This document shows positions 13,998 through 61,242 of a DNA stretch of 64,000 nucleotides, piece after piece. The notes under the pieces were generated by a model. It did no database searches, was not told the DNA's origin, and worked only from the letters and a program-made list of their open reading frames with translations. The stretch is from Halobaculum sp. CBA1158 (GTDB taxonomy: Archaea; Halobacteriota; Halobacteria; Halobacteriales; Haloferacaceae). Positions within the stretch are counted from its first letter, which is position 1; each line of letters opens with the position of its first letter. Where the stretch lies: positions 372,001-436,000 of the forward strand of contig NZ_CP090371.1 of the NCBI RefSeq assembly GCF_021431925.1, written 5' to 3'. The position numbers and the translations under genes were made by a program.

Positions 13998-14066
13998 GAC
14001 AGGGGTTTCCTCGGTCGCTCGCTACGCTCGCTCCCTGCGGGAACCCCCGTTGAAAACCCGTTCATG
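13998..14066. terminator. Imperfect inverted repeats downstream of the 198-residue gene
   Basis: GGGGTTTCC (about 14001-14010) can pair with GGGAACCCC (about 14038-14047) with one mismatch, and the loop itself holds the near palindrome TCGCTCGCTACGCTCGCT. This could fold as a long hairpin 3' of the preceding gene. Such GCTCGCTACGCTCG motifs are common haloarchaeal intergenic filler, so termination is only a suggestion. Confidence 0.35.
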
Positions 14067-31317: not shown

Positions 31318-31835
31318 ACGAGCGGTAGCGAGTGAAGACCTCGGAGAGCGAACGGCGACCAGCGGGAGCCGTGAGCAGCGAGGCGTGAGGGAGCGAGCGT
31401 AGCGAGCGACCGAACGCCTCGGTAGAACGGCGGCGCGGTCCTCATCCCGCGCCGCCCACGAAAACCGCGAGGACGAGTGAGCGCGTAGCGCGAACGAGTC
31501 CTCGAACCGAGCGGGGAGCGTGCGCGGTCGAACGGTGCGGGGCCGACCGGAGGGAGGCCCCGGGCGAACGGGGAGCGATGTGACCCGTGAGCGAGTGAGA
31601 CCGCGATGGCGAACGGCGAATGAAGCGAGCCCGGATCGCCCGGGCGCTCCACGGAGATCGCGAGACGTGAGCCGAACGCCTCGCGAGGCCGCTCCGCCCA
31701 CAGAGACAGCCACGCCGAGTTGTCGCCGGACCTCCGGACGGTCACCGGAGTCCTTCACGAACGTGCGTGTACTAATTTGTTTCTCTCCGAGTCGTGGTCC
31801 GGGGATTTATGCCGGTGTGGTCGCCGTTCACACAC
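31318..31835. other. 518-nt intergenic region of degenerate GAGCG/GCGAAC-type sequence
   Basis: The stretch is full of short related words (GAGCGAACGG, GAGCGAGCGTAGCGAGCGA, GAGTGAGCGCGTAGCGCGAACGAG, GTGAGCGAGTGAG). No frame has believable haloarchaeal codon use. This type of decaying low-complexity filler is frequent between haloarchaeal genes. The last 50 nt (GTACTAATTTG, then ATTTATG) are AT-richer and act as the promoter of the next gene. Confidence 0.6.
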
Positions 31836-34128: not shown

Positions 34129-35286
34129 CTACTCGACGCGCCCGGTCGCGTCCGCGTCGCGCTCGGAGCCCTCCCCGGAGGAGGCCTCCGTCTCGGCTCC
34201 CGCGTCCGCCTCAGCTCCTGCATCCGTCTCAGCTCCTGCATCCGTCTCAGCTCCTGCATCCGTCTCAGTCTCCGCTTCCGCGATCAGTTCGGACACGTCG
34301 TCCCCGTCGTTCGCCTCGCCGTCCGGCGTCTCGCCTGCTCCCCGGCGAACTCGGTCGACGACCGTCGGCCACGCGACGATGAGCGCGACGGCGGCGAACG
34401 ACAGCGGCGCGACCGCGAGCAGTCGGTACGGCGTCGTGTCGGGCACGACGCCGAAGACGTACGGGAGCCCCGCCGTGGTGACGCCGTACGCGCCGCCGAA
34501 CAGCGCGAGGATGCCGACGAGCCCGGCGGCGACGCCGACGCCGCCGACGGGCGCTGACTCCGTGCCGCGGAGCCGCCAGACGGCGTAGCCGCCGAACCCG
34601 CCGCCGGCGGCGATCCCGGCTTCCAGCACCTCGCCGCCGTGGCCGCCGGCGGCCGCGACCGCGCACGCGACGACGCCGAGCACGCCGGCGAGGAAGAACG
34701 CCCGGTCCGGGTGGGGGCGAAAGCCCGAGCGTGCGACCCGCTGGAACGCGACCAGGCCGACGACGCCGACGGCGACGCCGACGGCGACGTCGGCGAGGTA
34801 GTGGACGCCGAGCACGACCCGGGTGGTCGCGACGACTCCCACGAACGCGGCCGCGGCGCGGAGGCGGTCGCGTCGCCGTCCCACGTCGAGGAACGTCGCG
34901 AGCCCGCCGTACACCATCGTCGAGGCGACCGCGTGGCCCGAGGGGAACCCGAAGCCGTCGCCGGTGGCGGCGTCGACGAACGCGAGTTCGAGCAGGCCCG
35001 GGAGCCACGCCGGCGCGGTCGCCTCGGCGGCACCCGGGGGTCGCGGGAGCGCGAACAGGCTCTTGAGGCCGACCACGATCGCGAGCGCGCCCAGCGCGAC
35101 GGCGATGAGGGTCGCCCCCACTCTGCGGGGATTGGCCGCCAGCCGGCGGTCGCCGAGCCAGTAGAGCAGCGCCAGGCCGAGGTAGACGAACCAGGCGTCG
35201 CCGAGTTGCGTGAGGACGGCGGCGGCGGCGACCAGCCAGTCGGGGACCGCCGCCGTCGACCCGGCGAGGAATCCGCGTGCGAGCAT
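34129..35286 (-). CDS. PAP2-family membrane phosphatase
   Basis: 385 residues. Motif 1 K-x6-R-P (KSLFALPRP), motif 2 PSGHAVAS (FGFPSGHA) and motif 3 R-x5-H-x3-D (RVVLGVHYLADVAVG) are all intact, so a phosphatidic-acid/undecaprenyl- or dolichyl-pyrophosphate type phosphatase is likely. TM helices flank the active site at the outer membrane face, and a further four TM helices follow in the C-terminal half. The C-terminal tail is an acidic low-complexity run encoded by three perfect 18-bp tandem units (Glu-Thr-Asp-Ala-Gly-Ala). Its start is 12 nt after the stop of the 142-residue gene. Confidence 0.9.
   Translation of the reverse strand: MLARGFLAGSTAAVPDWLVAAAAVLTQLGDAWFVYLGLALLYWLGDRRLAANPRRVGATLIAVALGALAIVVGLKSLFALPRPPGAAEATAPAWLPGLLELAFVDAATGDGFGFPSGHAVASTMVYGGLATFLDVGRRRDRLRAAAAFVGVVATTRVVLGVHYLADVAVGVAVGVVGLVAFQRVARSGFRPHPDRAFFLAGVLGVVACAVAAAGGHGGEVLEAGIAAGGGFGGYAVWRLRGTESAPVGGVGVAAGLVGILALFGGAYGVTTAGLPYVFGVVPDTTPYRLLAVAPLSFAAVALIVAWPTVVDRVRRGAGETPDGEANDGDDVSELIAEAETETDAGAETDAGAETDAGAEADAGAETEASSGEGSERDADATGRVE
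34212..34265. repeat. Three perfect 18-bp tandem repeats
   Basis: CAGCTCCTGCATCCGTCT repeated at 34212-34229, 34230-34247 and 34248-34265, preceded by a degenerate copy (34194-34211). It lies inside the PAP2 gene and keeps frame (six residues per unit), so copy number may vary between strains without frameshift. Confidence 0.85.
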
Positions 35287-43883: not shown

Positions 43884-44109
43884 ACCGACCACTCCGTGCG
43901 CGCCGACTATCAGTCCGTTGCCGTCGACGCCGGCCAGTCCGTTGCGGCTGACGCCGGCCCAACCGATGGACGACCGCGTCGGCTCCGTCGGCGACGATCC
44001 GTCGCCGTCTCGCGGCTTCACTTCCACCGCGGTCACGGAATACTAAATAGGATCGCGAACCAACCGTCGTACGCCTCCCACCGAACACATACCCGGAGGC
44101 GAGAGAACC

Positions 44110-48369: not shown

Positions 48370-48443
48370 GTCCGGGTTGGGGTAGTGGACTATCCTTCAG
48401 CCTTGTGGAGGCTGAGACGCGGGTTCGATTCTCGCACCTGGAC
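48370..48443 (+). tRNA. tRNA-His (anticodon GTG)
   Basis: The acceptor stem runs TCCGGGT / ACCTGGA; the preceding G (48370) can pair with the discriminator C (48443), i.e. the encoded G-1 that HisRS needs. The anticodon arm CAGCC-TTGTGGA-GGCTG gives anticodon GTG at 48405-48407. T arm: GCGGG-TTCGATT-CTCGC. CCA is not encoded. The TATA-like GTATTT lies at about 48335-48340, and T-rich GTTTCAAATTTCTC (48446-48459) follows as terminator. Confidence 0.96.
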
Positions 48444-48444
48444 T

Positions 48445-48458: not shown

Positions 48459-48475
48459 ACACTTCTTGAAGCGAG

Positions 48476-48492
48476 TTCACTTCCGCTCCGTG
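48476..48492 (+). promoter_or_regulatory. 17-bp upstream element, copy 1
   Basis: TTCACTTCCGCTCCGTG, identical to 56088-56104. Its last base is 37 nt before the ATG of the zinc-finger gene (48529), just upstream of the BRE/TATA region, the position of an archaeal activator or upstream promoter site. Confidence 0.6.
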
Positions 48493-48496
48493 GGGG

Positions 48497-48505
48497 ATAC
48501 ATAAA
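48497..48505 (+). promoter_or_regulatory. TATA element of the C2H2 gene
   Basis: ATACATAAA, centred about 27 nt before ATG 48529. It fits a leaderless transcript. Confidence 0.55.
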
Positions 48506-48528
48506 CAGTCACTACCAGACCTGTTCGC

Positions 48529-48663
48529 ATGCAGGTCGTCTGTCCGGCGTGCGACTCCGAATTCGGAACCAACCGCGGGATGCGTGTTCACCACAGTAGA
48601 AGCCACGGAGCGATCCGAGTGACTCTCAGGTGCCCACGGTCGAGGGCTCACACTCCCTTGTGA
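48529..48663 (+). CDS. 44-residue C2H2 zinc-finger protein
   Basis: Too short for usual gene callers. It holds one complete classical finger: C5-x2-C8-x12-H21-x4-H26, with Phe12 and Met18 at the hydrophobic-core sites (CPACDSEF then MRVHHSRSH). C2H2 fingers with H-H-S motifs are found at the N-terminus of haloarchaeal HNH or homing endonucleases, so this may be the surviving end of such a gene, or an independent small regulator. A well-placed TATA element and a conserved 17-bp upstream element suggest it is transcribed. Confidence 0.6.
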   Translation: MQVVCPACDSEFGTNRGMRVHHSRSHGAIRVTLRCPRSRAHTPL

Positions 48664-48717
48664 ACCAGGCGAGGCGGCAGCGGGGATGGGTGATTATCTG
48701 GCGAGCGACCGGACCGC

Positions 48718-49905
48718 TCACACGCTTCGACCGCCGAGACCCGGAAGAACACCCGCGTCGGAGCTCATGCCCAGCGACTCCCGGCCGCCGGTTTGGATGA
48801 TGTTGAACGCGGTCATCAGGTCGGTCCGCGAGATGAGCCCGACGAGCTCGCCGTCGGCGTCGAGGACGGGAAGCCTGCCGACGCCGCTCTGCTGCATGGT
48901 CTCAAGCGCGGTCACGGCGTCGGCATCGGGCGTGACGCTGGCGATCTCCGTCTCCATCACGTCCTCGACGGTGTAGGCGTCGCGCTCCACCTCGCGGACG
49001 CCCTGCGCGTCCTGCAGCGTGACCATTCCGACGAGCCGTCCGTTCTGCATGACGGGGTAGCCGGTGTGGCGTTCCCGGAACATCCGCTCCATCAACTGGG
49101 CGACGCTCGTGCGCGGCTCGACCGTCTTCAGGTCCTCGCGCGGCGTCATGATGTCGTCGACCGAGACGCCCTCGAAGGCCGCGCGCATCGTCGTCTGCTG
49201 CGCCTCGCTGGAGGCGGCGATGTAGACGAAGAAGGCCAGGCCGACGAGCAGCCAGTTGCCGCCGAACAGCCCGAACAGTCCCAGCAGGAACGCGAACACC
49301 TTCCCGACCTCGGCGGCGATCTGGGTGGCCCGCGCGTGGGGGCGATTGCGCGCGAGCAGGGCCCGGAGGACGCGACCGCCGTCCATGGGGAAGCCGGGGA
49401 GCATGTTGAACGCCGCGAGCACGAGGTTCATCAGGGCGAGATAGCCCACGACGAACGCGACCGCGGGCGGGAGGCCGACGCCGATCAGGACGGCCGCGGA
49501 GACGAGGCCGATGGCGACCGACACCACCGGACCCATGATCGCGACGGTGAACTCCTGTTTCCAGTCCTCGGGCATCTCCTCGAAGGAGGCGACGCCGCCG
49601 AACAGCCACAGCGTGATCGACTCGATGCGGTATCCGTAGCGCATCGCGGTCAGCGAGTGACCGAACTCGTGCAACAGCACGGAGACGAACAGCCCGACAG
49701 CCGAGACCGTTCCGAGCACCCACGGGACGCTTCCGGCGGTAATCGCCTCGGCGGCGATCGGTACCCCGAACGTGTCCGCGACGATACCGGAGAACTCTCC
49801 GACCTGACTCCCGATGAGATACGCGAACAGCGGGAGGATCAGGAGGAACGTCCAGTTCAGTTGGATCGGGATGCCGGCGACCCGCCCGACACGGATTCCT
49901 CGCAT
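48718..49905 (-). CDS. Site-2 protease (M50) family with CBS domains
   Basis: 395 residues. Membrane zinc metalloprotease: zinc-binding HEFGH at 79-83 (VLLHEFGHSL), third ligand Asp175 in GFPMDGGRVL, both in TM helices. It has six TM helices (LNWTFLLILPLFAYLIG to LLVGLAFFVYIAAS), then two CBS domains (about 245-300 and 310-370; DIMTPREDLKTV, GYPVMQNGRLVGMVTL, SGVGRLPVLDADGELVGLI). S2P enzymes cleave membrane-embedded substrates such as anti-sigma factors, and CBS domains bind adenine nucleotides as regulators. It is convergent with nothing nearby; substrate unknown. Confidence 0.93.
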   Translation of the reverse strand: MRGIRVGRVAGIPIQLNWTFLLILPLFAYLIGSQVGEFSGIVADTFGVPIAAEAITAGSVPWVLGTVSAVGLFVSVLLHEFGHSLTAMRYGYRIESITLWLFGGVASFEEMPEDWKQEFTVAIMGPVVSVAIGLVSAAVLIGVGLPPAVAFVVGYLALMNLVLAAFNMLPGFPMDGGRVLRALLARNRPHARATQIAAEVGKVFAFLLGLFGLFGGNWLLVGLAFFVYIAASSEAQQTTMRAAFEGVSVDDIMTPREDLKTVEPRTSVAQLMERMFRERHTGYPVMQNGRLVGMVTLQDAQGVREVERDAYTVEDVMETEIASVTPDADAVTALETMQQSGVGRLPVLDADGELVGLISRTDLMTAFNIIQTGGRESLGMSSDAGVLPGLGGRSV

Positions 49906-49979
49906 ACCTCGGGGTAGTTCCCCACGGCGTATAAACCCGGTCGCCGGGAGTTATGTCGGAGCACGCGAAACGGGCGGCC

Positions 49980-50381
49980 ATGAGCGAGACCGATCCGACG
50001 ACTGCGACCGGTCCGGAGCCGACCGTGAAGCGCGGAAACGACCTCGTGACGGCCGAAGTCGACGCGGGCGACGGCATGTCGAAGGGCGTGCTCATAGACG
50101 AGTCGGACGGCGCGCCCCACTTCGCGATGCGCCGGTTCGAACTCGCGCCCGGCGCGCGCGTCCCGAACCACACGAACGAGGTCGAACACGAGCAGTACGT
50201 GCTCGCGGGCGAGTACACGGTTGGGCTTGACGGGGAGGAGTACACCGTGGCAGAGGGCGACGCGCTGCTCATCCCCTCGGGCGTCCCACATTGGTACCGG
50301 AACGACGGCGACGAAGCGGCCGCGTTCATCTGTGTGGTCCCTCACGGCGACGACACGATCCGGGTGCTGGACGACGACTAG
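49980..50381 (+). CDS. Cupin-domain protein
   Basis: 133 residues from ATG 49980 (MSETDPTTATG); a start at 49953 adds nine residues. One cupin barrel: motif 1 GARVPNHTNEVEHEQYVLAGE (His/His/Glu), motif 2 EGDALLIPSGVPHWYRND. A single-domain metal-binding protein, probably a small-molecule-binding protein or simple dioxygenase-like fold; substrate unknown. It is divergent from the site-2 protease with 74 nt between starts. Confidence 0.85.
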   Translation: MSETDPTTATGPEPTVKRGNDLVTAEVDAGDGMSKGVLIDESDGAPHFAMRRFELAPGARVPNHTNEVEHEQYVLAGEYTVGLDGEEYTVAEGDALLIPSGVPHWYRNDGDEAAAFICVVPHGDDTIRVLDDD

Positions 50382-50715
50382 CCGGATTCCGCGGTAGTTG
50401 CGTCGGTCGCGGTGGTTGCGGTGGCCGTGGTAGTTGCGGCGGTTGCGGTGGCGCGTGCCGGCACGGCTCCGTCCGTGCCGGACGCGCGCGAGGGGCGAGC
50501 GACCGAGCGGTAGCGAGGGAGTGAGTCGGCTGGGGAGGACGTGGCTGGGGGCGGTCACGGCGGACGGGGTCGAACGGTTGGGACCTCCGCAGTCGTGCGA
50601 TCACCTGCAGCGACGGCCATCCCGGCGACGCCGTTAGTGACTACGATACGCACTCGCACACGGAAGCCGAATCCCTGAAATACCGCATCCACGTACCAGG
50701 AGGCAACCGAAGACC
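50382..50715. other. 334-nt intergenic region with G-rich repeats and a hairpin
   Basis: Contains GGTTGCGGTGG-type imperfect repeats (50399-50450) and a perfect 9-bp stem CCGGCACGG/CCGTGCCGG with 6-nt loop (50458-50481), then GAGCG-type filler. I see no gene in it. The hairpin follows the cupin stop by about 77 nt and could mark the end of its transcript, although there is no T run. Confidence 0.5.
50458..50481 (+). terminator. Perfect 9-bp hairpin after the cupin gene
   Basis: CCGGCACGG CTCCGT CCGTGCCGG, a strong stem-loop in non-coding DNA. Termination is suggested, not shown. Confidence 0.35.
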
Positions 50716-52758
50716 GTGTCCGAGCAACTCCCGCAGGTCGAGACCCTGTTCCTCCACGAGCGCGACGCCGCCGACGAGTTCACGGTCGTCGTCGAGCGCG
50801 ACGACAGCCGAGTCCTCCACGGCGTCCTCGAACTCAAGGAGGCTGACGCCGGCCCGCGCCCGCGACGCTTCCGCGTCAAGCAGAAGGGCGGCGAGGAGCC
50901 GCGCCAGCCCGACCAGTTCGTCGAACTGGCGCGCTCGGCCCGCCGCATCCGCATCTCCGAGCAGACCCGCGCGAGCGCTCGCGACCGCCTCCAGTCGATG
51001 CTCTCGGCGTACCAGCTCGACGCCAAACAGGTTCGCACGTGCCGCTACTGCGCCAACGACGGGCGCTACTCGCCGATCACGAGCGACACCGCCGTGAAGG
51101 CGGACCGCGACTGGATCTGTCCCGACTGCGCCGAGCGCGAACTGGAGCGGGAACTCTCCTACAAGGGGCAGTTCACCGGCAACGCCCGCGAGCGCCTGGA
51201 GGACCTGCTGTTCGAGGTGCAGGACCTCGAACGGATCACGAACCTCCTGCAGGGGAACCTCGACCCCGACCTCACGAAGTTCGACACCATCTCGGCGACG
51301 ACCGACGAGATCGACCCGGTCCCCACCGACTCGCTGAACCTCCATCCCGCGCTGCAGGAGCGCGTCGAGGGACGGTTCGACGAACTGCTGCCGGTCCAGA
51401 GCCTCTCGGTCGAGAACGGGCTGTTCGACGGCGACGACCAACTGGTCGTGAGCGCGACGGCGACCGGGAAGACGCTCGTCGGCGAACTCGCGGGCGTCAA
51501 CAACGCCCTCAACGGGAAGGGAAAGATGTTGTTTCTGGTCCCGCTGGTCGCGCTCGCCAACCAGAAACACGAGGACTTCGAGGACCGCTACGGCGACGTG
51601 CTCGACGTGACGATCCGCGTGGGTGCCTCTCGCATCAACGACGACGGCAACCGTTTCGACCCGAACGCCGACGTGATCGTCGGCACCTACGAGGGGATCG
51701 ACCACGCGCTGCGCACGGGCAAGGACATGGGCGACATCGGCACGGTCGTCATCGACGAGGTTCACACGCTCAAGGAACCCGAGCGGGGCCACCGCCTCGA
51801 CGGGATGATCTCCCGGCTGAAGCACTACTCCGAGAACCGGGGGGCGTCCGCCCAGTGGGTGTACCTCTCGGCGACCGTCGGCAACCCCGAGTTCCTCGCC
51901 GGGCGGCTGGGCGCGACGCTCATCGAGTTCGAGGAGCGCCCGGTCCCCATCGAGCGCCACGTCACCTTCGCCGACCAGCGCGAGAAGCTCGACATCGAAA
52001 AGAAGCTCGTCAAACGCGAGTTCGACGCGAAGTCATCGAAGGGGTACCGCGGGCAGACGATCATCTTCACCAACTCCCGGCGTCGGTGCCACGAGATCTC
52101 ACGGAAACTGGAGTACGACTCCGCGCCGTACCACGCCGGCCTCGACTACAAGCGACGCAAGACCGTCGAGCGCAAGTTCGGAAACCAGGACCTGGCGGCC
52201 GTCGTCACCACCGCCGCCCTCGCCGCAGGCGTCGACTTCCCCGCCTCGCAGGTGATCTTCGACACGCTCGCGATGGGGATCGAGTGGCTCTCCGTCCAGG
52301 AGTTCGAGCAGATGCTCGGCCGGGCGGGCCGCCCGGACTACCACGACGAGGGGAAAGTGTACGTTCTCGTCGAGCCCGACGCGAGCTATCACTCCTCGAT
52401 GGAGGGGACCGAGGACGAGACGGCGTTCAAGCTGCTGAAAGGGGAGATGGAAGACGTGAAGACGGTGTACGACACCTCCTCCGCCGCCGAGGAGACGCTC
52501 GCGAACGTCGTCGTCGCGGGCAAGCGCGCCAAGCGACTCAACGACCGGATGATCGGCGAGGTTCCCACCACCCACGCGGTCGGGAAGCTGCTGGAGTGGG
52601 AGTTCATCGACGGCCTCTCGCCGACGCCGCTGGGCCGCGCCGTCGCCGAGCACTTCCTCGCGCCCGACGACGCCTTCCGCATCCTCGACGGGATCCGAAA
52701 GGGGAGCGACGCCTACGGGATCGTCGCGGACATGGAACTGGCCGACGAGGAGCTGTAA
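50716..52758 (+). CDS. Zinc-containing DEAD/DEAH-type superfamily 2 helicase
   Basis: 680 residues from a GTG. N-terminal domain with a four-Cys zinc site (CRYCANDG about 113 and CPDCAERE about 137). Helicase core: Walker A SATATGKTLVGELA, VPLVALANQ, DEAD-like motif II IDEVH (VVIDEVHTL), motif III SATVGNP, C-terminal RecA domain YRGQTIIFTNSRRRCHEI, motif V TTAALAAGVDFPA and motif VI QMLGRAGRPDYHD. The latter motifs resemble Hel308/Ski2-type helicases. Archaeal homologues are sometimes fused to DUF5814, here encoded separately at 46674-47129. Nucleic-acid target unknown. Confidence 0.9.
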   Translation: MSEQLPQVETLFLHERDAADEFTVVVERDDSRVLHGVLELKEADAGPRPRRFRVKQKGGEEPRQPDQFVELARSARRIRISEQTRASARDRLQSMLSAYQLDAKQVRTCRYCANDGRYSPITSDTAVKADRDWICPDCAERELERELSYKGQFTGNARERLEDLLFEVQDLERITNLLQGNLDPDLTKFDTISATTDEIDPVPTDSLNLHPALQERVEGRFDELLPVQSLSVENGLFDGDDQLVVSATATGKTLVGELAGVNNALNGKGKMLFLVPLVALANQKHEDFEDRYGDVLDVTIRVGASRINDDGNRFDPNADVIVGTYEGIDHALRTGKDMGDIGTVVIDEVHTLKEPERGHRLDGMISRLKHYSENRGASAQWVYLSATVGNPEFLAGRLGATLIEFEERPVPIERHVTFADQREKLDIEKKLVKREFDAKSSKGYRGQTIIFTNSRRRCHEISRKLEYDSAPYHAGLDYKRRKTVERKFGNQDLAAVVTTAALAAGVDFPASQVIFDTLAMGIEWLSVQEFEQMLGRAGRPDYHDEGKVYVLVEPDASYHSSMEGTEDETAFKLLKGEMEDVKTVYDTSSAAEETLANVVVAGKRAKRLNDRMIGEVPTTHAVGKLLEWEFIDGLSPTPLGRAVAEHFLAPDDAFRILDGIRKGSDAYGIVADMELADEEL

Positions 52759-52877
52759 CCGACCGGGGGCTATCGACGGTCGGCCGTCCGACCGCCGGTG
52801 GGAACCGACCGCAGTCGCGTTCCGGACGTGTCGGAGACCGTACCAAGGTTGATTGCCGTCGCCGCCGTCATCCGAAC

Positions 52878-53300
52878 ATGGCCGACGCATCCGCCAGCCG
52901 ACAGCTCGTTCGCGAGGTTCGATCACAGCTCGACGGGTGGACGGACCGCGCCCGCGTCGAGGCGTACGACGAGCTGTTTGAGGGCGACGACCCGATCCTC
53001 TCGGAGGAGGAGCTCCGACTGCTCGATGCGGTCGACTCGCGCCTGGAACGACACGGCGGCGACGGCGTCTGGGGAACCGACCGGTACGGCATCCAGGCGG
53101 CCGACGGCGGGCGATCGACCGACGCGCTCGGCGTCGTCTGCGTGTATCACCCGCAGGTGACGAGCGACTCGGTGCTGCGCGGCATGGACGACCTCGACGA
53201 CGAGACCGAAGAGCGGATCAACGCGGCGCTGTGGACGTACGCCGAGCGCGTCACGGAACTCGTCGAGGACGCGCTCGACGAGTACCTCGACCGGGACTGA
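52878..53300 (+). CDS. Conserved haloarchaeal hypothetical protein
   Basis: 140 residues, very acidic, soluble. Helical N-terminus (SRQLVREVRSQLDGWTDRARVEAYDELFEGDDPILSEEELRLLDAV in pieces), a central VWGTDRYGIQAADGGRSTDALGVVCVYHPQ, and a helical C-terminus rich in Glu/Asp. No motif recognised. It starts 120 nt after the helicase stop on the same strand, ATG at 52878. Confidence 0.72.
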   Translation: MADASASRQLVREVRSQLDGWTDRARVEAYDELFEGDDPILSEEELRLLDAVDSRLERHGGDGVWGTDRYGIQAADGGRSTDALGVVCVYHPQVTSDSVLRGMDDLDDETEERINAALWTYAERVTELVEDALDEYLDRD

Positions 53301-53354
53301 TCCCCGATCGCGAAGGCGGACCGTTGCGTGACCCCGCCGGGTCAGGCGTTCCCG

Positions 53355-53954
53355 TCAGACGCCGAGCCACTCGTCGTTCCGGACCTCGTAGCCGTTCGCC
53401 CGGCAGTACTCGGCCGCCCGTCGCCGGACTGACCGGGATCCGGGAAGCTCGCGATCCTCGCGGATCCGCTCGACGATCCAGTCGGCGACGACCGGGATCC
53501 CCTCGTTCTCGTCGATCGGATCGATGGCCACGAGCTCCCTGAACGTTCGCTCGTAGCCGTCCCGTTGGGAGCCGGCGAGTTCCAGCTCCCGGATCGACCC
53601 GACGGTCTCGGCGATCCGCTTCATCGCCGCGGCGACTGTCGGCCGCTGTATCCGGACTCGGACGGCCGCGGCGGAGGCGAACGTCTCCTCGTCGGTGTCG
53701 GGAAGGAGCGCCTCGACGGCGTACGTCCCGTCGTCGGTCGGGATCTCGCGCTCGCCGATCGCATCGACGACCTCGGATCCGGGCGCGGGGAACTCCACCG
53801 ACTCGAGATCCCGTTCGATATCGGAGAGGACGTCCTCGTCGACCGGCGGCTCCGCCTCGTCGTATCGATCCATCTCGGTGGCGAGGGCCCGCTCCTGTCG
53901 GCGCTTCTCGGCGTCGTGCGCCTGCTTGTCGCGGCCGCGTTTGTCGTCTGCCAT
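53355..53954 (-). CDS. Conserved haloarchaeal hypothetical protein
   Basis: 199 residues, ATG 53954. Charged helical N-terminus (DKRGRDKQAHDAEKRRQERALATEMDRYDEA), a domain with strands (VEFPAPGSEVVDAIGEREIP, YAVEALLPDTDEETFASAAAVRVRIQ) and a helical C-terminus ending in AEYCRANGYEVRNDEWLGV. No recognised motif. It is convergent with the 140-residue gene (54 nt between stops) and divergent from the permease. Confidence 0.75.
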   Translation of the reverse strand: MADDKRGRDKQAHDAEKRRQERALATEMDRYDEAEPPVDEDVLSDIERDLESVEFPAPGSEVVDAIGEREIPTDDGTYAVEALLPDTDEETFASAAAVRVRIQRPTVAAAMKRIAETVGSIRELELAGSQRDGYERTFRELVAIDPIDENEGIPVVADWIVERIREDRELPGSRSVRRRAAEYCRANGYEVRNDEWLGV

Positions 53955-54095
53955 TCCCCCGGAGTTGGCTCCCGACCCGGATAACCCCGCGTCCGATTGT
54001 CGAACCGTGCGAACGCGGACCGCGGACGAGGCCGGGTGGCGGCCGTGCCGGTCCGGTCCCGTACCCTTTTGCCCGCAGCCGGTGTCGGACTCGGC

Positions 54096-55952
54096 GTGCT
54101 CGCGCCCGAGATCCTGTTCGTCTTCGCGGTGATCCTCGCGGCGCTCGTGCTGTTCGTCACCGAGCCGGTCCCGGTCGACATCACCGCGATCGGCGTCCTC
54201 GTCGCGCTGCTGTTGGCGGGGCCGATCTCGACCGCGCTCGCGGGGCTCGGGCTGCTCGCCGCGCCGTTCGAACTCGTCACGGTCGAGGAGGGGCTGTCCG
54301 GGTTCGCCAACCCCGCGACGCTGACGGTGCTTGCGATGTTCGTTCTCTCTGAGGGGGTGCGGATGACCGGCATCATCCAGCGGTTGGGCGCGTTCATCTC
54401 CCGGATCACCAAGGGAGACGAGACCAAACAGCTCGGGGCGACGATCGGCGTCGTGGGACCGATATCCGGGCTGATCAACAACACCGCGGCCGTCGCGATC
54501 CTCCTCCCGATGGTGATCGACCTCGCCGAGCGCGGTCGCACGTCGCCGTCGAAGCTCCTCCTCCCGCTGAGCTACGCGTCGATGTTCGGTGGGACGCTCA
54601 CGCTCATCGGCACGTCGACGAACATCCTCGCCTCGGACCTGTACGCGACGCTCGCGCCGGCGGGCGTCGCCCGCCAGTTCCGGATGTTCGAGTTCCTCCC
54701 GCTCGGGGCGGTGCTGCTGGTCGTCGGTTCGATCTACCTGCTCACCGTCGGCCGGTGGCTCACTCCGGCCCGAATCAAGCCGCGATCCGACCTCACAGAG
54801 GAGTTCCAGATGGCGGACTACCTGACCGAGGTCGTCGTCCGCGAGGACTCCCCGCTGGTGGGCCAGCGCGTCGAGACGGCGCTGTCGGAGACGGAGTTCG
54901 ACGTCGACCTCGTCCAACTCGTCCGCGGCAACCGGACGTTCCTCGAACCGTTCGGACAAAAGGAGATCCGCGCGGGCGACGTGTTCGCCGTGCGAACCGA
55001 CCGGGCGACGCTGGTCGACCTGCTCGACGTCGAGGGGCTCGACCTCGTGCCCGAGACGGTCGACGAAGCCGAGTTGGAGACGGCCGAAGCGACGACGAAC
55101 CTCGTCGAGGTCGTCGTCGCGCCCGGGTCGTCGCTGGTCGGCGAGTCGCTCGCCTCGGCCAGTTTCCGTCAGCGCTACGACGCGACCGTGCTCGCGTTCC
55201 GCCGCGGCGGCGAGCTGGTCCGCCAGCGCATGGACCACATTCCGCTTCGGGTCGGCGACACCCTGCTCGTGCAGGCGAGCGACCACTCGATCGAACGGCT
55301 CGACGCCAACCGCGACGTCATCCTCGCCCGCGAGATCGAAACGCACGACTGGCGGCGCAACCGGACGCCGATCGCCGTCGGTATCGTCGCGCTCGTCGTC
55401 GGTCTCGCCGCCGTGAACGTGCTGCCGATCGTCGTCTCGGCGCTCGCGGGCGCGCTCGCGATGGTCGTCACGGGCTGTCTCAAGCCCGGCGAGGTGTACG
55501 ATGCCGTCGAGTGGGACGTGATCTTCCTGCTGGCGGGCGTCATTCCGCTCGGCATCGCGATGCAGACGTCCGGAACCGCCGGGCTGATCGCCGACGCGGT
55601 CGTCGCCGGGGCCGACGTGCTCTCGCCGCTGGCGCTGTTGGGCTCGTTCTACGTGGTGACGGCGCTGCTCACGAACGTCATCTCGAACAACGCCAGCGTC
55701 GTGCTCATGATCCCCGTCGCGCTGCAGGTCGCGGCGACCCTCGGGGCGAACCCGCTCGCGTTCGCCATGGCGGTGACGTTCGCCGCGTCGACGGCGTTCA
55801 TGACGCCCGTCGGCTATCAGACGAACCTCTTCGTCTACGGTCCGGGCGGCTACCGCTTCAGCGACTACGTCCGCGTCGGCGCGCCGTTACAGGCGATCTT
55901 CGCGGTCGTGACGACGCTCGGGATCCCCGTCGTGTTCGGACTGGGGATGTGA
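54096..55952 (+). CDS. SLC13/DASS-type transporter with RCK_C (TrkA-C) domains
   Basis: 618 residues from a GTG with a CCTTTTGC promoter patch about 29 nt upstream; an earlier start at 53997 would add 33 Arg-rich residues. Two membrane halves of about five to six helices carry the SLC13 signature twice (GLINNTAAVAILLPMVIDLA, TLIGTSTNILAS; and VISNNASVVLMIPVALQVA, STAFMTPVGYQTN). Between them lie two RCK_C domains (about 235-320 and 330-415). Such proteins transport sulfate, dicarboxylates or citrate with Na+; RCK_C domains bind nucleotides. Substrate unknown. Confidence 0.92.
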   Translation: MLAPEILFVFAVILAALVLFVTEPVPVDITAIGVLVALLLAGPISTALAGLGLLAAPFELVTVEEGLSGFANPATLTVLAMFVLSEGVRMTGIIQRLGAFISRITKGDETKQLGATIGVVGPISGLINNTAAVAILLPMVIDLAERGRTSPSKLLLPLSYASMFGGTLTLIGTSTNILASDLYATLAPAGVARQFRMFEFLPLGAVLLVVGSIYLLTVGRWLTPARIKPRSDLTEEFQMADYLTEVVVREDSPLVGQRVETALSETEFDVDLVQLVRGNRTFLEPFGQKEIRAGDVFAVRTDRATLVDLLDVEGLDLVPETVDEAELETAEATTNLVEVVVAPGSSLVGESLASASFRQRYDATVLAFRRGGELVRQRMDHIPLRVGDTLLVQASDHSIERLDANRDVILAREIETHDWRRNRTPIAVGIVALVVGLAAVNVLPIVVSALAGALAMVVTGCLKPGEVYDAVEWDVIFLLAGVIPLGIAMQTSGTAGLIADAVVAGADVLSPLALLGSFYVVTALLTNVISNNASVVLMIPVALQVAATLGANPLAFAMAVTFAASTAFMTPVGYQTNLFVYGPGGYRFSDYVRVGAPLQAIFAVVTTLGIPVVFGLGM

Positions 55953-55981
55953 GCCGTCCCGTGTCCGGGGCGAACGGAACG

Positions 55982-55987
55982 GTTTAG
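55982..55987 (+). promoter_or_regulatory. TATA element of tRNA-Pro
   Basis: GTTTAG about 30 nt before the first tRNA base (56015). Confidence 0.5.
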
Positions 55988-56014
55988 TTCGTCGGGGGAG
56001 CGATATGGAGGTAC

Positions 56015-56086
56015 GGGACCGTGGGGTAGTGGCTATCCTCTGGCGTTTGGGACGCTTGGACCCGAGTTCGACTCTCGGCGGTCCCA
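56015..56086 (+). tRNA. tRNA-Pro (anticodon TGG)
   Basis: Acceptor GGGACCG pairs perfectly with CGGTCCC; discriminator A at 56086. D arm GGGT...ATCC, T arm CCGAG-TTCGACT-CTCGG. The anticodon loop TTTGGGA (56046-56052) gives TGG at 56048-56050. The outermost anticodon-stem pair is a T-T mismatch in my folding, tolerable in haloarchaeal tRNAs. No CCA encoded and no intron. Confidence 0.95.
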
Positions 56087-56087
56087 C

Positions 56088-56104
56088 TTCACTTCCGCTC
56101 CGTG
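56088..56104 (+). promoter_or_regulatory. 17-bp upstream element, copy 2
   Basis: TTCACTTCCGCTCCGTG, identical to 48476-48492 and again ending exactly 37 nt before the start codon of the next gene (56141). It begins one base after the discriminator-adjacent C of tRNA-Pro. Confidence 0.6.
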
Positions 56105-56111
56105 CCGACCG

Positions 56112-56118
56112 CTTAGTT
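56112..56118 (+). promoter_or_regulatory. TATA element of the PD-(D/E)XK gene
   Basis: CTTAGTT, centred 26-27 nt before ATG 56141. It supports ATG rather than the TTG at 56132 as start. Confidence 0.5.
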
Positions 56119-56140
56119 CCTCTCGCCTCCCTTGGAACGT

Positions 56141-56956
56141 ATGCAACCGCTCCACGAGATGCCGAGCCATCGGAAGGGCGACTACACCGAGGCGATCGTC
56201 GTCGCGGAACTGAAACGACGCGGGGTCCGCGTCGCGAGACCCGTCGGTGACAACGAGCGGTACGACCTCGTCGTCGCCGCGGAGTCCGGGTTCTACTCGG
56301 TACAGGTGAAGACGGGTCTCCTGATGGACGGGTGCGTCTACGTCCGCGGGAAGTCACAGCACACGAACGCCACCGGAAACACGTACCGGGACTACGACGG
56401 GGATGTCGACCTCTTTCTCGTCTACTGTCACGACCTCGAGACGATGTATCTCGTTCGCGAGGACGCGTTCGGCACCGGAATGTACCTCCGCGTCGACGAA
56501 CCGGAACAGCGCGACCGGACTATCAACTGGGCGGCGGAGTACGAATTCGACCGGAACTGGCCGCCGTCTTCGGCGACCCGCCCGTGTGACGACGGACTTC
56601 GCGTTACCCGGAAACTCGAAGAGCGGGACGTCCTCGTCCATCGGTCGACGACCGACCGCTCGTACGATCTCCTCCTCGAGACCCCAGACGGGGCGTATCA
56701 CCGGACGACCGTCACGCCCGGATATCTGAACGACGGCCGCGTCCGGTTCGACGGGAAGGGAGCGATACTCCCCGACGACACCGATCTCGTGCTCGTCGAC
56801 TGCGACGATCTCGACACGCTGTATCTCGTCCGCCGTGACGAGTACGATGCCGCGATCTCGCTCCGCGTCGACCCACCGGCGAAGCCGAACAGCCGGATCA
56901 ACTGGGCCGAGGACTACGAGTTCGACGCACGCTGGCCCGACGACATCACCGAGTAG
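56141..56956 (+). CDS. Duplicated PD-(D/E)XK nuclease-like protein
   Basis: 271 residues in two similar halves. Half 1 (1-141) has the nuclease set: Glu17 in GDYTEAIVVAELKRRG, Asp42 in YDLVV and Gln55-x-Lys57 in VQVKTG, typical of the group I intron endonuclease-like PD-(D/E)XK family (PF11645-like). Half 2 (about 158-265) repeats the layout (YDLLLETPDG, Asp176) but has Thr where Lys is expected (HRTTVTPGYLNDG), so it is probably inactive. Both halves end with a matching block: RTINWAAEYEFDRNW and SRINWAEDYEFDARW. This indicates internal duplication. It directly follows tRNA-Pro; the function (restriction, mobile or repair) is open. Confidence 0.82.
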   Translation: MQPLHEMPSHRKGDYTEAIVVAELKRRGVRVARPVGDNERYDLVVAAESGFYSVQVKTGLLMDGCVYVRGKSQHTNATGNTYRDYDGDVDLFLVYCHDLETMYLVREDAFGTGMYLRVDEPEQRDRTINWAAEYEFDRNWPPSSATRPCDDGLRVTRKLEERDVLVHRSTTDRSYDLLLETPDGAYHRTTVTPGYLNDGRVRFDGKGAILPDDTDLVLVDCDDLDTLYLVRRDEYDAAISLRVDPPAKPNSRINWAEDYEFDARWPDDITE

Positions 56957-56992
56957 CCGCCGCCGCGATCCACTTCCACTCGGAGGCGACAG

Positions 56993-57024: not shown

Positions 57025-60000
57025 ATGAGTCAGGCCGCCGAGGGGCAGGACGTCGACGCCTTCCTCAGTTTCTACCGGACCTACTACAGCGACGAGATCG
57101 CGCGTCTCGCCCAGAACTACCCGAAGGAACAGCGCTCCCTCTACGTCGAGTACGACGACCTCTACACGTTCGACCCCGACCTCGCCGACCGGTACCTCAA
57201 CCGCCCGGGCGAGATGCAGGAGGTCGCCGAGGAGGCGCTGCGCACGTACGACCTCCCGGTCGACATCTCGCTGGGCCAGGCCCACGTCCGACTCCGCGGG
57301 CTCCCGCGCGAGAGCACCCTCGACATCCGGGGGATCCGCGTCAGCGACGACCACATCGGGTCGATGGTCGCGGTGATGGGCATCGTTCGCAAGGCGACGG
57401 ACGTGCGCCCGAAGATCGTCGAGGCGGCCTTCGAGTGCCAGCGCTGCGGGACGATGACGTACATCCCGCAGAACGACTCCGGCTTCCAGGAGCCCCACGA
57501 GTGTCAGGGGTGTGAGCGACAGGGCCCCTTCCGCGTCAACAACAACGAGTCGAAGTTCATCGACTCCCAGCAGCTCCGGGTGCAGGAGTCGCCCGAGGGA
57601 CTGCGCGGTGGGGAGACGCCCCAGAGCATCGACGTGAACCTCGAGGACGACGTGTGCGGGGAGGTGACCCCCGGCGACCACGTCACCGTCGTCGGCCGCC
57701 TGGAGATGGAGCAGGTGACGAGCGGCCAGGAGAAGACGACGGTGTTCGACCCGTACATGGAGGGCGTCTCCGTCGTCATCGAGGACGAGGAGTTCGAGGA
57801 CATGGACATCACCGACGAGGACAAACAGGAGATCCTCGAACTCTCGACCCACGACGACATCTACGACGAGATGGTCGCCTCCGTCGCGCCCTCCATCTAC
57901 GGGTACGAGCAGGAGAAGCTCTCGATGATCCTCCAACTGTTTTCGGGGGTCACGAAGCACCTCCCGGACGGGTCGCGGATCCGTGGCGACCTGCATATGC
58001 TTCTGATAGGAGACCCGGGTACCGGCAAGTGCGTTGACGGGGATACCCGAGTGACGCTCGCGGACGGTTGTGACGTTCCGATCCGGGAACTCGTCGAGTC
58101 GAATCTCGACGAGCCGAAGCCGGTGGACGACGGCGTGTGGGACGAGGCGGGATTCGAGGTCCCGTCGCTCGGGTCGAACGGCGATATCGAGTCGCGGCGG
58201 GCGACGAAAGTCTGGAAGCGGGAGGCACCCGATGAGATGCTCCGGATCCGGACGAACGGCGGACGGGAACTGGACGTGACGCCGTCGCACCCGTTGTTCG
58301 TTCGCGCGGGTGCGGGACACCACGCAGTTCGTGCGGAGGAACTCTCCGAGGGGGCGACGATCGCTGCCGTGTCGAAGCCGCTGACCGACGGTGGAGCGGC
58401 TGCTGTTCGTTCGTCGGTGCCGGCATCTCGACCCACGTCGCTCAGACGAACGTGGGAACGGATCGAGTCGATCGATCGCGTCGAACCGGCTGCTGAGTGG
58501 GTGTACGACCTCGAAGTCGACGGGACGCACAGCTACGTCTCGAACGGGATCGTCTCCCACAACTCCCAGATGCTGTCGTACATCCGGAACATCGCCCCCA
58601 GATCGGTGTACACGTCCGGTAAAGGTAGCTCAAGTGCTGGGTTGTGTGTCACCGGTGACACTCGGATCCATACCGAAGACGGATTCCACGAGATTCGTGA
58701 CATAGCGACCGAATATCATCCGGACCCGGTTTCCGAGGAGACAGCGGCAACCGCGACACATGGCCTCTACACGTACGACCGCGATGAGGGCGAAATCGGT
58801 GCGGCGGAGAGTTCCCACGTTTGGCGAATGCCGGAGAAGCCGTGTAGGCGGATCGAAACGGCTCACGGAAAACGGTTAGAGGCCTCGGTTACCACTCCGG
58901 TTCTCGTATGCGGTGCGGACGGGATCGAGTGGCGGCCGATATCCGATATCTCTCCTGGCGATACTGTCGCCATTCCGAAGTATCGGAACATCGAACGGTC
59001 GTCCCCTTCGATCAGAGCGTTTCTCGAACTCACAGAGGAGAAGGTGAAGCCGAGCGAGCGATCCGTCGAGTTCCTTCGAACGCGGCTGTGTGAGGAGTAC
59101 GGAACGCTACGCGATGCAGCTTCGGCACTCAACCTCCCTGAGGACTTCATCTATGACTCGCTGTCGAACAGGCACCTCCCGCTTGACAGACTCGATCGGA
59201 TCCTCAATGCGATCGGTACCGATCGCGACGATATCGACATCGACCGAGTGATGCTCCGCCACGGAGAGGGTGTCGAGATCCCGGAGGAGTTCGGTGCGGA
59301 TCTACTGTACTTGATCGGACTCGTGTTCGGGGATGGTGACGTGATGGTGTCTCGTCGGGGAGGCAACCGCGGCCACGTCCGGATATCGAACAGCGACGAA
59401 GGCCTCCTCCGACGTGCTGCGGACATCATCGAGGACCAATTCGGGAAGTCAGTAGACATCGAGTATCAGGAGGACCGAGTCCCGTGTATTCGTCTCCATA
59501 GTGCGACTGTCGCCCGGTTCTTCAGCAACCTCGGCGTAGAGTCGCCAAAGACCGATCTCGAACTCGATCCACGGCTAACGACGGCAGAACACGCCGACGA
59601 ATTCCTCCGTGGGCTGTTCGACGCTGACGCGTCGGTCTGCTCTCGAACTGATGGCGGGTCGAGCATCCAATTTTCGACGGTCTGCTCGGACCTCGCAGAA
59701 CAGGTCCAGTTGATGCTAGAGACGTACGGCGTCCGCGCGAGACTGCGCGAGCGTGACAGACGGGGCACCTACGAACGTGCGGACGGACACGAGATCGACT
59801 CCACATCGATCCAGACCCACCTCGCGATCTACGGACGGAACATCGACGCATTCGCCGAACAGATCGGGTTCCGGTCGAGTGCAAAGAGCGATTCGCTGGA
59901 CTCGATCGTCGCCGATACGGCCCGACGCGGCGAGCGGCTCCCGATCGGCGACGCACTCGTCCAGACGGACGGTGCCGGCGGCCAATTTTACCAGAATATG

Positions 60001-61242
60001 AACCGCGGCGACAACCCGAGTCGAAGCCGGGCACGTGCTCTGTTAGCCGACCGCGACCTCGGTGACCGGGCCTCGATCGTTGAGGAGGCGGTCGGTGCAG
60101 ACTTGCTCTGGGACGACGTCGTCGATGCGTCCGACACCGGCGAGAAGGAAGTGTTCGATCTGACGGTCCCGGAGACACACAACTTCGTCGGCAACGGCGT
60201 CGTAACCCACAATACTGCCGCCGCGGTTCGCGACGACTTTGGCGACGGCCAGCAGTGGACGCTGGAGGCGGGGGCACTCGTCCTCGCTGACAAGGGGATC
60301 GCCGCTGTCGACGAACTGGACAAAATGAGGTCGGAAGATCGATCAGCCATGCATGAGGCATTGGAACAACAACAAATTTCGGTATCTAAGGCCGGAATAA
60401 ATGCAACTCTTAAATCTCGCTGTTCCCTCCTCGGCGCGGCGAACCCCAAGTACGGTCGCTTCGACCAGTACGAGCCGATCGGCGAGCAGATCGACCTCGA
60501 ACCCGCTCTCATCTCGCGGTTCGACCTCATCTTCACCGTCACGGACAGCCCCGACCCGGAACACGACGCGAAGCTGGCCGATCACATCCTGACGACGAAC
60601 TACGCGGGCGAGTTGAACACCCAGCGCACGGAGATGGCGACCTCGAACTTCACCCAGGAGGAGGTCGACGAGGTGACCGAGGAGGTCGCGCCGGTCATCG
60701 ACGCCGAACTCCTGCGGAAGTACATCGCGTACGCCAAGCGGAACTGCTACCCGACGATGACCGACGAGGCGAAGGCGGCGATCCGGGAGTTCTACGTCGA
60801 CCTGCGGGCGAAGGGGGCCGACGAAGACGCCCCCGTGCCCGTCACCGCCCGGAAGCTGGAGGCGCTCGTCCGCCTGTCGGAGGCCAGCGCGCGGGTCCGG
60901 CTGTCGGACACCGTCGAGGAGGAGGACGCGACCCGGGTGATCGAGATCGTCCGCTCGTGTCTCCAAGACATCGGCGTCGATCCCGAAACGGGCCAGTTCG
61001 ATGCCGACGTGGTCGAAACCGGGACCAGCAAGAGCCAGCGCGACCGGATCAAGAACATCAAGGAGCTCATCGGTACGATCGCCGAGGAGTACGAGGACGA
61101 GCCCGGCGCGCCCGTCGACGCGATCCTGGAGCGCGCCGACGAGGTCGGCATGGACTCGGGCAAGGCCGAGAAGGAACTGGAGAAGCTCAGAACGAGAGGC
61201 GAGATCTACGAGCCGCAGTCCGGCTACGTCCGGACGACGTGA
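57025..61242 (+). CDS. mcm: Replicative helicase MCM, interrupted by two inteins
   Basis: The precursor has 1405 residues: N-extein 1-335, intein A 336-513, middle extein 514-540 (27 residues), intein B 541-1063, C-extein 1064-1405; the mature protein has 704 residues. Extein features: N-terminal OB/zinc domain with C138, C141, C160, C163; Walker A GDPGTGK, broken by intein A exactly after Lys; TSGKGSSSAGL, whose end is broken by intein B; Walker B IAAVDELDKM (Asp1096, Glu1097); sensor 1 GAANPKYGRF; Arg finger SRFDLIF; and a C-terminal winged helix. It unwinds DNA ahead of the fork as a hexamer. Neighbours downstream may be cotranscribed. Codon use in 60322-60423 is strikingly AT-rich. Confidence 0.97.
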   Translation: MSQAAEGQDVDAFLSFYRTYYSDEIARLAQNYPKEQRSLYVEYDDLYTFDPDLADRYLNRPGEMQEVAEEALRTYDLPVDISLGQAHVRLRGLPRESTLDIRGIRVSDDHIGSMVAVMGIVRKATDVRPKIVEAAFECQRCGTMTYIPQNDSGFQEPHECQGCERQGPFRVNNNESKFIDSQQLRVQESPEGLRGGETPQSIDVNLEDDVCGEVTPGDHVTVVGRLEMEQVTSGQEKTTVFDPYMEGVSVVIEDEEFEDMDITDEDKQEILELSTHDDIYDEMVASVAPSIYGYEQEKLSMILQLFSGVTKHLPDGSRIRGDLHMLLIGDPGTGKCVDGDTRVTLADGCDVPIRELVESNLDEPKPVDDGVWDEAGFEVPSLGSNGDIESRRATKVWKREAPDEMLRIRTNGGRELDVTPSHPLFVRAGAGHHAVRAEELSEGATIAAVSKPLTDGGAAAVRSSVPASRPTSLRRTWERIESIDRVEPAAEWVYDLEVDGTHSYVSNGIVSHNSQMLSYIRNIAPRSVYTSGKGSSSAGLCVTGDTRIHTEDGFHEIRDIATEYHPDPVSEETAATATHGLYTYDRDEGEIGAAESSHVWRMPEKPCRRIETAHGKRLEASVTTPVLVCGADGIEWRPISDISPGDTVAIPKYRNIERSSPSIRAFLELTEEKVKPSERSVEFLRTRLCEEYGTLRDAASALNLPEDFIYDSLSNRHLPLDRLDRILNAIGTDRDDIDIDRVMLRHGEGVEIPEEFGADLLYLIGLVFGDGDVMVSRRGGNRGHVRISNSDEGLLRRAADIIEDQFGKSVDIEYQEDRVPCIRLHSATVARFFSNLGVESPKTDLELDPRLTTAEHADEFLRGLFDADASVCSRTDGGSSIQFSTVCSDLAEQVQLMLETYGVRARLRERDRRGTYERADGHEIDSTSIQTHLAIYGRNIDAFAEQIGFRSSAKSDSLDSIVADTARRGERLPIGDALVQTDGAGGQFYQNMNRGDNPSRSRARALLADRDLGDRASIVEEAVGADLLWDDVVDASDTGEKEVFDLTVPETHNFVGNGVVTHNTAAAVRDDFGDGQQWTLEAGALVLADKGIAAVDELDKMRSEDRSAMHEALEQQQISVSKAGINATLKSRCSLLGAANPKYGRFDQYEPIGEQIDLEPALISRFDLIFTVTDSPDPEHDAKLADHILTTNYAGELNTQRTEMATSNFTQEEVDEVTEEVAPVIDAELLRKYIAYAKRNCYPTMTDEAKAAIREFYVDLRAKGADEDAPVPVTARKLEALVRLSEASARVRLSDTVEEEDATRVIEIVRSCLQDIGVDPETGQFDADVVETGTSKSQRDRIKNIKELIGTIAEEYEDEPGAPVDAILERADEVGMDSGKAEKELEKLRTRGEIYEPQSGYVRTT
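58030..58563 (+). mobile_element. MCM intein A (178-residue mini-intein)
   Basis: Begins at Cys336 (CVDGDTRVTLADG) and ends His-Asn before extein Ser514. Block B is DVTPSHPLFVR; the C-terminal blocks are WVYDLEVDGTHSYVSNGIVSHN. No LAGLIDADG motif or room for an endonuclease: only splicing domains. It sits after the P-loop Lys, the same structural site as the RfcS intein. Still-functional splicing is implied because all splicing blocks are intact. Confidence 0.94.
58645..60213 (+). mobile_element. MCM intein B (523 residues) with LAGLIDADG endonuclease
   Basis: Begins at Cys541 (CVTGDTRIHTEDG) and ends in HN before Thr1064. Block B EASVTTPVLVCGADG, blocks F/G VFDLTVPETHNFVGNGVVTHN. Two LAGLIDADG helices, LIGLVFGDGD and FLRGLFDADA, both retain Asp, so an active homing endonuclease is plausible. 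An HTH-like stretch (TLRDAASALNLPEDFIYD) precedes the first helix. The codon use is less GC-rich than the exteins. Confidence 0.94.

Follow-up and report, generated by a model that had tools for sequence, protein, structure and literature searches.

A repeated element before two genes of Halobaculum

The 64,000-nucleotide stretch of Halobaculum sp. CBA1158 analyzed here (contig NZ_CP090371.1, positions 372,001 to 436,000; hereafter the window) contains a 17-mer, TTCACTTCCGCTCCGTG, at 48476-48492 and again at 56088-56104, both on the + strand. Each copy lies downstream of a transfer RNA (tRNA) gene and upstream of a gene start, that of a short open reading frame (ORF) with a zinc finger in the first case and that of a nuclease gene of the PDDEXK_5 family in the second. 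The ATG codons of these genes (48529 and 56141) are each 37 nt past the last base of the 17-mer. The repeat, its coordinates and both distances are just as described in an earlier note made from the letters of this DNA, and these two copies are the only exact ones in the whole 3.32-Mb genome. Judging from its letters, its position and its relatives elsewhere, the 17-mer is probably a variant form of the DNA-damage promoter box of haloarchaea, the published core of which is TTTCACTTTCA and which here takes the form TTTCACTTYCRCTCCG.

No further copy is present in the window when up to three mismatches are allowed, and the genome holds few relatives with two mismatches or fewer, these own-genome statistics being based on genome searches and retrieved loci. 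When GTDB R220 was scanned for the exact 17-mer, only one of the 20 matches was haloarchaeal (Halosimplex aquaticum, 38 nt before the ATG of a DUF763 protein), so that the exact 17-letter word itself is not conserved. The bare repeat is weak evidence as well, because a repeated 17-mer arises in 24% of second-order shuffles of the non-coding DNA of the window (16.6 kb, estimated). There are 28 direct repeats of at least 17 bp in the window, mostly GC-rich, and the only wholly non-coding ones are the TTCACTTCCGCTCCGTG pair and two tandem arrays. What carries the weight is the equal position before two starts, together with membership in a promoter motif that is found throughout the genus and the order.

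Two other repetitive sequences were observed. At 34210-34268, an 18-bp unit, CTCAGCTCCTGCATCCGT, is repeated head to tail about three times, and a 26-bp GAGCGAGCGTAGCGAGC-type sequence occurs, inverted, at two non-coding sites (14011-14036 and 31388-31413).

Promoter layout and recurrence of the motif

At both copies, the box occupies approximately positions -54 to -39 relative to the start codon. Counted from the end of the 16-bp box, an AT-rich heptamer follows at +11 and the ATG at +39. The TATA element that the earlier note had placed ahead of each ATG is borne out in position, an AT-rich heptamer beginning 28 nt before both, and in quality only at the first gene, where ATACATAAA is a good TATA; TTAGTT at the second is weak. 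The same arrangement is seen in a set of 50 sites with a start codon 36-60 nt away. Their AT content peaks at ~0.75 about 13-18 nt past the box, and the ATG follows 41-49 nt past the box in most of them and ~30 nt after the AT-rich heptamer. Leaderless promoters in haloarchaea are arranged in this way, with an AT-rich heptamer ~30 nt before the ATG. Most likely, the two window copies thus occupy the standard place in a leaderless promoter, with the box beside the region of the B recognition element and TATA (BRE/TATA region), and equal 37-nt spacings are an expected consequence of this one layout.

As assessed with a position-weight model (PWM) trained without the window sites, the two copies rank first and second in the window with 22.2 bits each, the best of 60 third-order shuffles reaching 19.8. 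The degenerate form of the motif that is common to radA and other targets in the genus therefore fits both copies. Written as TTCACTTYCRCTCC, it matches 47 times, with sites in each of the 11 genus genomes; TTTCACTTYCRCTCCG gives 135 matches, spread over 62 of the 99 genomes of the order. The reversed control gave 0 in each search. Altogether, 111 distinct sites were retrieved, 83 of which have a recognizable downstream gene. Across the order, these genes cluster into topoisomerase VI subunit B, replication factor A (RPA), RadA, Orc1/Cdc6, Lhr-type helicase and threonine dehydratase, together with small proteins without assigned function and one UvrA; in the genus, genes downstream of TTCACTTYCRCTCC include orc1/cdc6, hjc and ilvA. 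All 11 radA promoters of the genus have a TTTCACTTYC site just before GTTAAC, which reads TTTCACTTYCAC in 10. Similarly, GTTCACTTTCACCGCG-type sites are found at -62/-63 in 10 of the 11 top6B promoters, with GGTTATAA a short way downstream; in the remaining promoter, the site is weaker. Searches of this genome and of a sister genome also returned near matches before dinB (three mismatches, ATG 40 nt downstream) and before threonine dehydratase, the latter followed by TTTTTTATA.

These results bear on the possibility that two unrelated intergenic sequences in GC-rich DNA share 17 bases by chance. The shuffle frequency given above, the many repeats of 17-20 bp in the window and the remnant state of one of the genes (see below) would all fit such a coincidence. 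We nevertheless consider it unlikely, for the copies have the two best motif scores in the window, exceeding the best of 60 shuffles, they share their promoter position with dozens of other sites, and the motif outnumbers its reversed controls by 47:0 and 135:0. The 17-bp identity is accounted for by two copies of the motif that agree at two degenerate positions and, by chance, in two or three flanking bases as well. Duplication of a longer promoter segment was rejected, because the identity ends at exactly 17 bp and the orthologous site in G009, another genome of the genus, differs at motif-degenerate positions. Random spacing to starts, or occurrence mainly in filler sequence, had been named in the earlier note as findings that would speak against a regulatory site; the opposite was observed. 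Haloarchaeal filler of the GAGCGAAGTGAGCG type is loosely similar in reverse complement, but position and gene content oppose this identification. The shared regulator site suggested in the earlier note is thus well supported, since the letters, the place of the copies 10-15 bp ahead of the TATA region and the distance to the start match those of a haloarchaeal box before repair and replication genes.

Including the two copies of the 17-mer, as many as four boxes in the window precede genes of repair, replication or nuclease kind (Table 1). The others are a site before the gene for RPA and a weaker one before the MCM gene. The RPA box is 79 nt from the ATG, compared with 80-82 nt in most box-bearing RPA genes of other genomes. 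The MCM box is uncertain, because the corresponding site in the genus relative G008 scores only 5.4 bits. Other PWM matches (20525, 41436, 42069 and 23569) were set aside since they lie within open frames. The MCM gene itself encodes intein-splicing and LAGLIDADG domains.

Table 1. Box sites and associated features in the window
Feature	Coordinates	Strand	Evidence or remark
tRNA-His(GTG)	48370-48444	+	ARAGORN
Box copy 1, GTTCACTTCCGCTCCG	48475-48490	+	PWM 22.2 bits, joint best in window
TATA-like element, ATACATAAA	48497-48505	+	Sequence; 24-32 nt before ATG; position fits AT peak 11-18 nt past the box in 50 other sites
zf-HNH nuclease remnant, 44 codons, N-terminal zinc finger only	48529-48663	+	
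tRNA-Pro(TGG)	56015-56087	+	ARAGORN
Box copy 2, CTTCACTTCCGCTCCG	56087-56102	+	PWM 22.2 bits
Weak TATA-like element, TTAGTT	56113-56118	+	28 nt before ATG
PDDEXK_5 nuclease gene, 271 amino acids	56141-56956	+	PF11645, 149.8 bits (gathering score 26.1), two stretches
Further box before RPA, CTTCACTTCCACCGCG	44016-44031	+	PWM 16.7 bits
TATA of RPA promoter, ATACTAAATA	44040-44049		
RPA (single-stranded DNA binding), 312 amino acids	44110-45048	+	NF005553, 475 bits (cut-off 353)
Tentative weak box before MCM, ATCCACTTCCACTCGG	56968-56983	+	PWM 14.4 bits
MCM helicase with intein(s)	57025-61242	+	PF00493, PF14890, PF14528

Two further groups of sites were noted. The genes found most often downstream of the box include those for proteins of ~50-60 amino acids that match no family, with the ATG typically 41-44 nt away (e.g. 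loci L250, L248, L263 and L210); these proteins are candidates for damage-response proteins. In five genomes of the genus, a box reading TTCACTTTCACTCC (L139, L149, L161, L197 and L211) apparently lies on the 3' side of a minus-strand gene, and no gene was found in the usual place beside these five sites, which are perhaps promoters of an unannotated or antisense transcript.

The two tRNA-adjacent nuclease genes

Of the two PD-(D/E)XK domains in the product of the PDDEXK_5 gene, one is good and the other degenerate. In most of the genus, orthologues of this gene likewise follow tRNA-Pro(TGG). The orthologous site in G009, ATCCACTTTCACTCCG, is at the same -54 position and scores 20.6 bits, differing from the window site mainly at motif-degenerate positions. 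In addition, two PDDEXK_5 genes of another genus (G053 and G116) have GACTACTTYCACTCYG at exactly -54. Most genes of the family (L212-L241) adjoin tRNA genes. Frequently, these are duplicated copies of tRNA-Asp(GTC), with the nuclease gene between them or to one side, and other members of the family are found beside tRNA-Pro, tRNA-Met or tRNA-Asn. From this distribution, it looks as if PDDEXK_5 nucleases home to tRNA genes.

What was described in the earlier note as a C2H2 zinc finger gene does contain a zinc finger region. The ORF matches only 46 residues at the start of a 272-amino acid zf-HNH protein (residues 4-49, 39% identity) and contains an internal stop. Of the zinc finger and HNH domain that make up an intact protein of this type, just the first zinc finger region is left, and a stop follows after 44 codons. 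By sequence, it is a truncated remnant of a zf-HNH nuclease gene. Intact genes of this type directly follow tRNA-His at seven of nine loci with a located start, in several genera (L364-L373). Copies of the tRNA-His 3' end are present within a few hundred bases downstream in relatives (L011, L019, L020, L021, L029 and L030), a pattern typical of past integrations at tRNA-His. A link to mobile or defense functions, also suggested in the earlier note, has some basis in its first part, as both families are nucleases habitually found beside tRNAs. The defense part is not supported by PADLOC, which matched the PDDEXK_5 protein only weakly, to a homing endonuclease, and the zinc-finger ORF not at all.

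Both genes were said to lie right after a tRNA. The two tRNA genes are indeed upstream, but the element abuts only tRNA-Pro (0 nt), 31 nt separating the 17-mer from the end of tRNA-His. The repeat could accordingly be linked to the tRNA genes themselves, as a 3' trailer or terminator common to both or as the scar of an attachment (att) site, which would agree with its adjoining the one and being near the other, and with the duplicated tRNA-His 3' ends downstream in several relatives. This is very unlikely. The 17-mer is part of neither tRNA, and its two copies are spaced unequally from the tRNA genes but equally from the ATGs, which led us to reject an integration or att site. A trailer or terminator was likewise rejected, because neither the element nor the box recurs in the trailers of the other own-genome tRNA genes examined. 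Moreover, most other motif sites are not reported after a tRNA and are defined by their downstream gene. The shared position after a tRNA is thus a habit of the two nuclease families rather than a feature of the box.

A probable DNA-damage box and its comparison with known systems

Several observations weigh against a damage-response box in front of these two genes. The window copies, GTTCACTTCCG and CTTCACTTCCG, share just 8 of the 11 letters of the published motif TTTCACTTTCA and are without its first T, so neither is an exact match. The degenerate pattern was picked after the window copies were known, though most of its matches have the TTTCACTTTCACTCC form and not that of the window. Damage may not be the sole signal, since the box also precedes ilvA and numerous genes for small proteins. 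Of seven PDDEXK_5 orthologues in the genus, five have no box; being present in G009 and in G053/G116 and absent in these five, it points to a control of PDDEXK_5 that is recurrent yet labile. Finally, eight of the nine zf-HNH relatives examined have no good box match, the other (G061) having a weak one at -55, and the broken state of the zinc-finger ORF makes a functional need for the box there doubtful. The special coordinated pair imagined in the earlier note is not supported: the two copies are two of many sites, most PD-(D/E)XK orthologues are without the box, and the zinc-finger ORF is decayed.

It is also conceivable that the box is a real promoter element for a regulator outside the damage response, such as the cell-division regulator CdrS. 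The frequency of ilvA as a downstream gene would fit, since the threonine ammonia-lyase HVO_0464 is a CdrS target by chromatin immunoprecipitation, and CdrS sites are mostly 41-110 nt before the transcription start site (PMC8406309). On the other hand, no repair gene is among the named CdrS targets, radA and cdc6 being unmentioned in the main text of that paper (PMC8406309), whereas genes with the box are largely repair and replication genes. On this comparison, which was made by gene lists, a regulator of that sort seems quite unlikely, and we retain the DNA-damage box as the preferred interpretation.

Starting from the observed sequence, position, recurrence and kinds of downstream genes, a factor would bind the box beside TATA and alter transcription initiation after DNA damage; a place upstream of TATA is typical for the binding of archaeal activators (PMC8406309). 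The PDDEXK_5 gene would then belong to one regulon with radA, top6B, rpa, hjc, dinB and others, and the copy after tRNA-His would drive only the truncated zinc-finger ORF, a zf-HNH relic. A broader picture, in which an SOS-like regulon with one box (TTTCACTTYCRCTCCG beside TATA) extends over the order and has drawn in tRNA-adjacent homing-type nucleases (PDDEXK_5, zf-HNH), is tentative and rather doubtful; if it were true, nucleases of the PDDEXK_5 and zf-HNH type would be made upon host DNA damage. A limited literature search found no regulator of the haloarchaeal DNA-damage motif, and the box offers a defined DNA bait and a promoter list for seeking it.

The closest known system is that of Halobacterium NRC-1, in which an 11-bp motif, TTTCACTTTCA, precedes four UV-B-induced genes, including radA1 and top6B; it stands ahead of the TATA box, at a distance of ~50 nt from the start (Boubriak et al. 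2008; PMC2556686). The motif was also found in radA promoters of other species (PMC2556686). The box described here has the same TTCACTT core, the same pre-TATA place ~50 nt before the start and, in the genus, radA and top6B as targets; in placement, too, the window copies agree with it, starting at -54 with the AT-rich heptamer 28 nt before the ATG. It differs in the 8 of 11 matching letters of the window copies, in its extension to TTTCACTTYCRCTCCG and in the window genes (PDDEXK_5 and a zf-HNH remnant). Relative to the motif of 2008, the present comparison gives a longer motif with a fixed distance to TATA, extends it over the order and adds repair and replication genes plus a mobile-type nuclease.

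In Sulfolobus, a DNA damage response element, ANTTTC, is bound by Orc1-2 (PMC9738581). It is likewise a short asymmetric promoter element of damage-response genes, the ACTTTC in the consensus box fits it, and an Orc1/Cdc6 gene is itself a target of the box in the genus. Unlike ANTTTC, both window copies read ACTTCC, and an Orc1-like factor at the box, by analogy with Orc1-2, would be a thought only. Compared with the bacterial SOS (LexA) box, the haloarchaeal element is non-palindromic and lies upstream of TATA, and no LexA is implied; what the two have in common is that one promoter element joins many repair genes, here with genes for mobile-type nucleases too.

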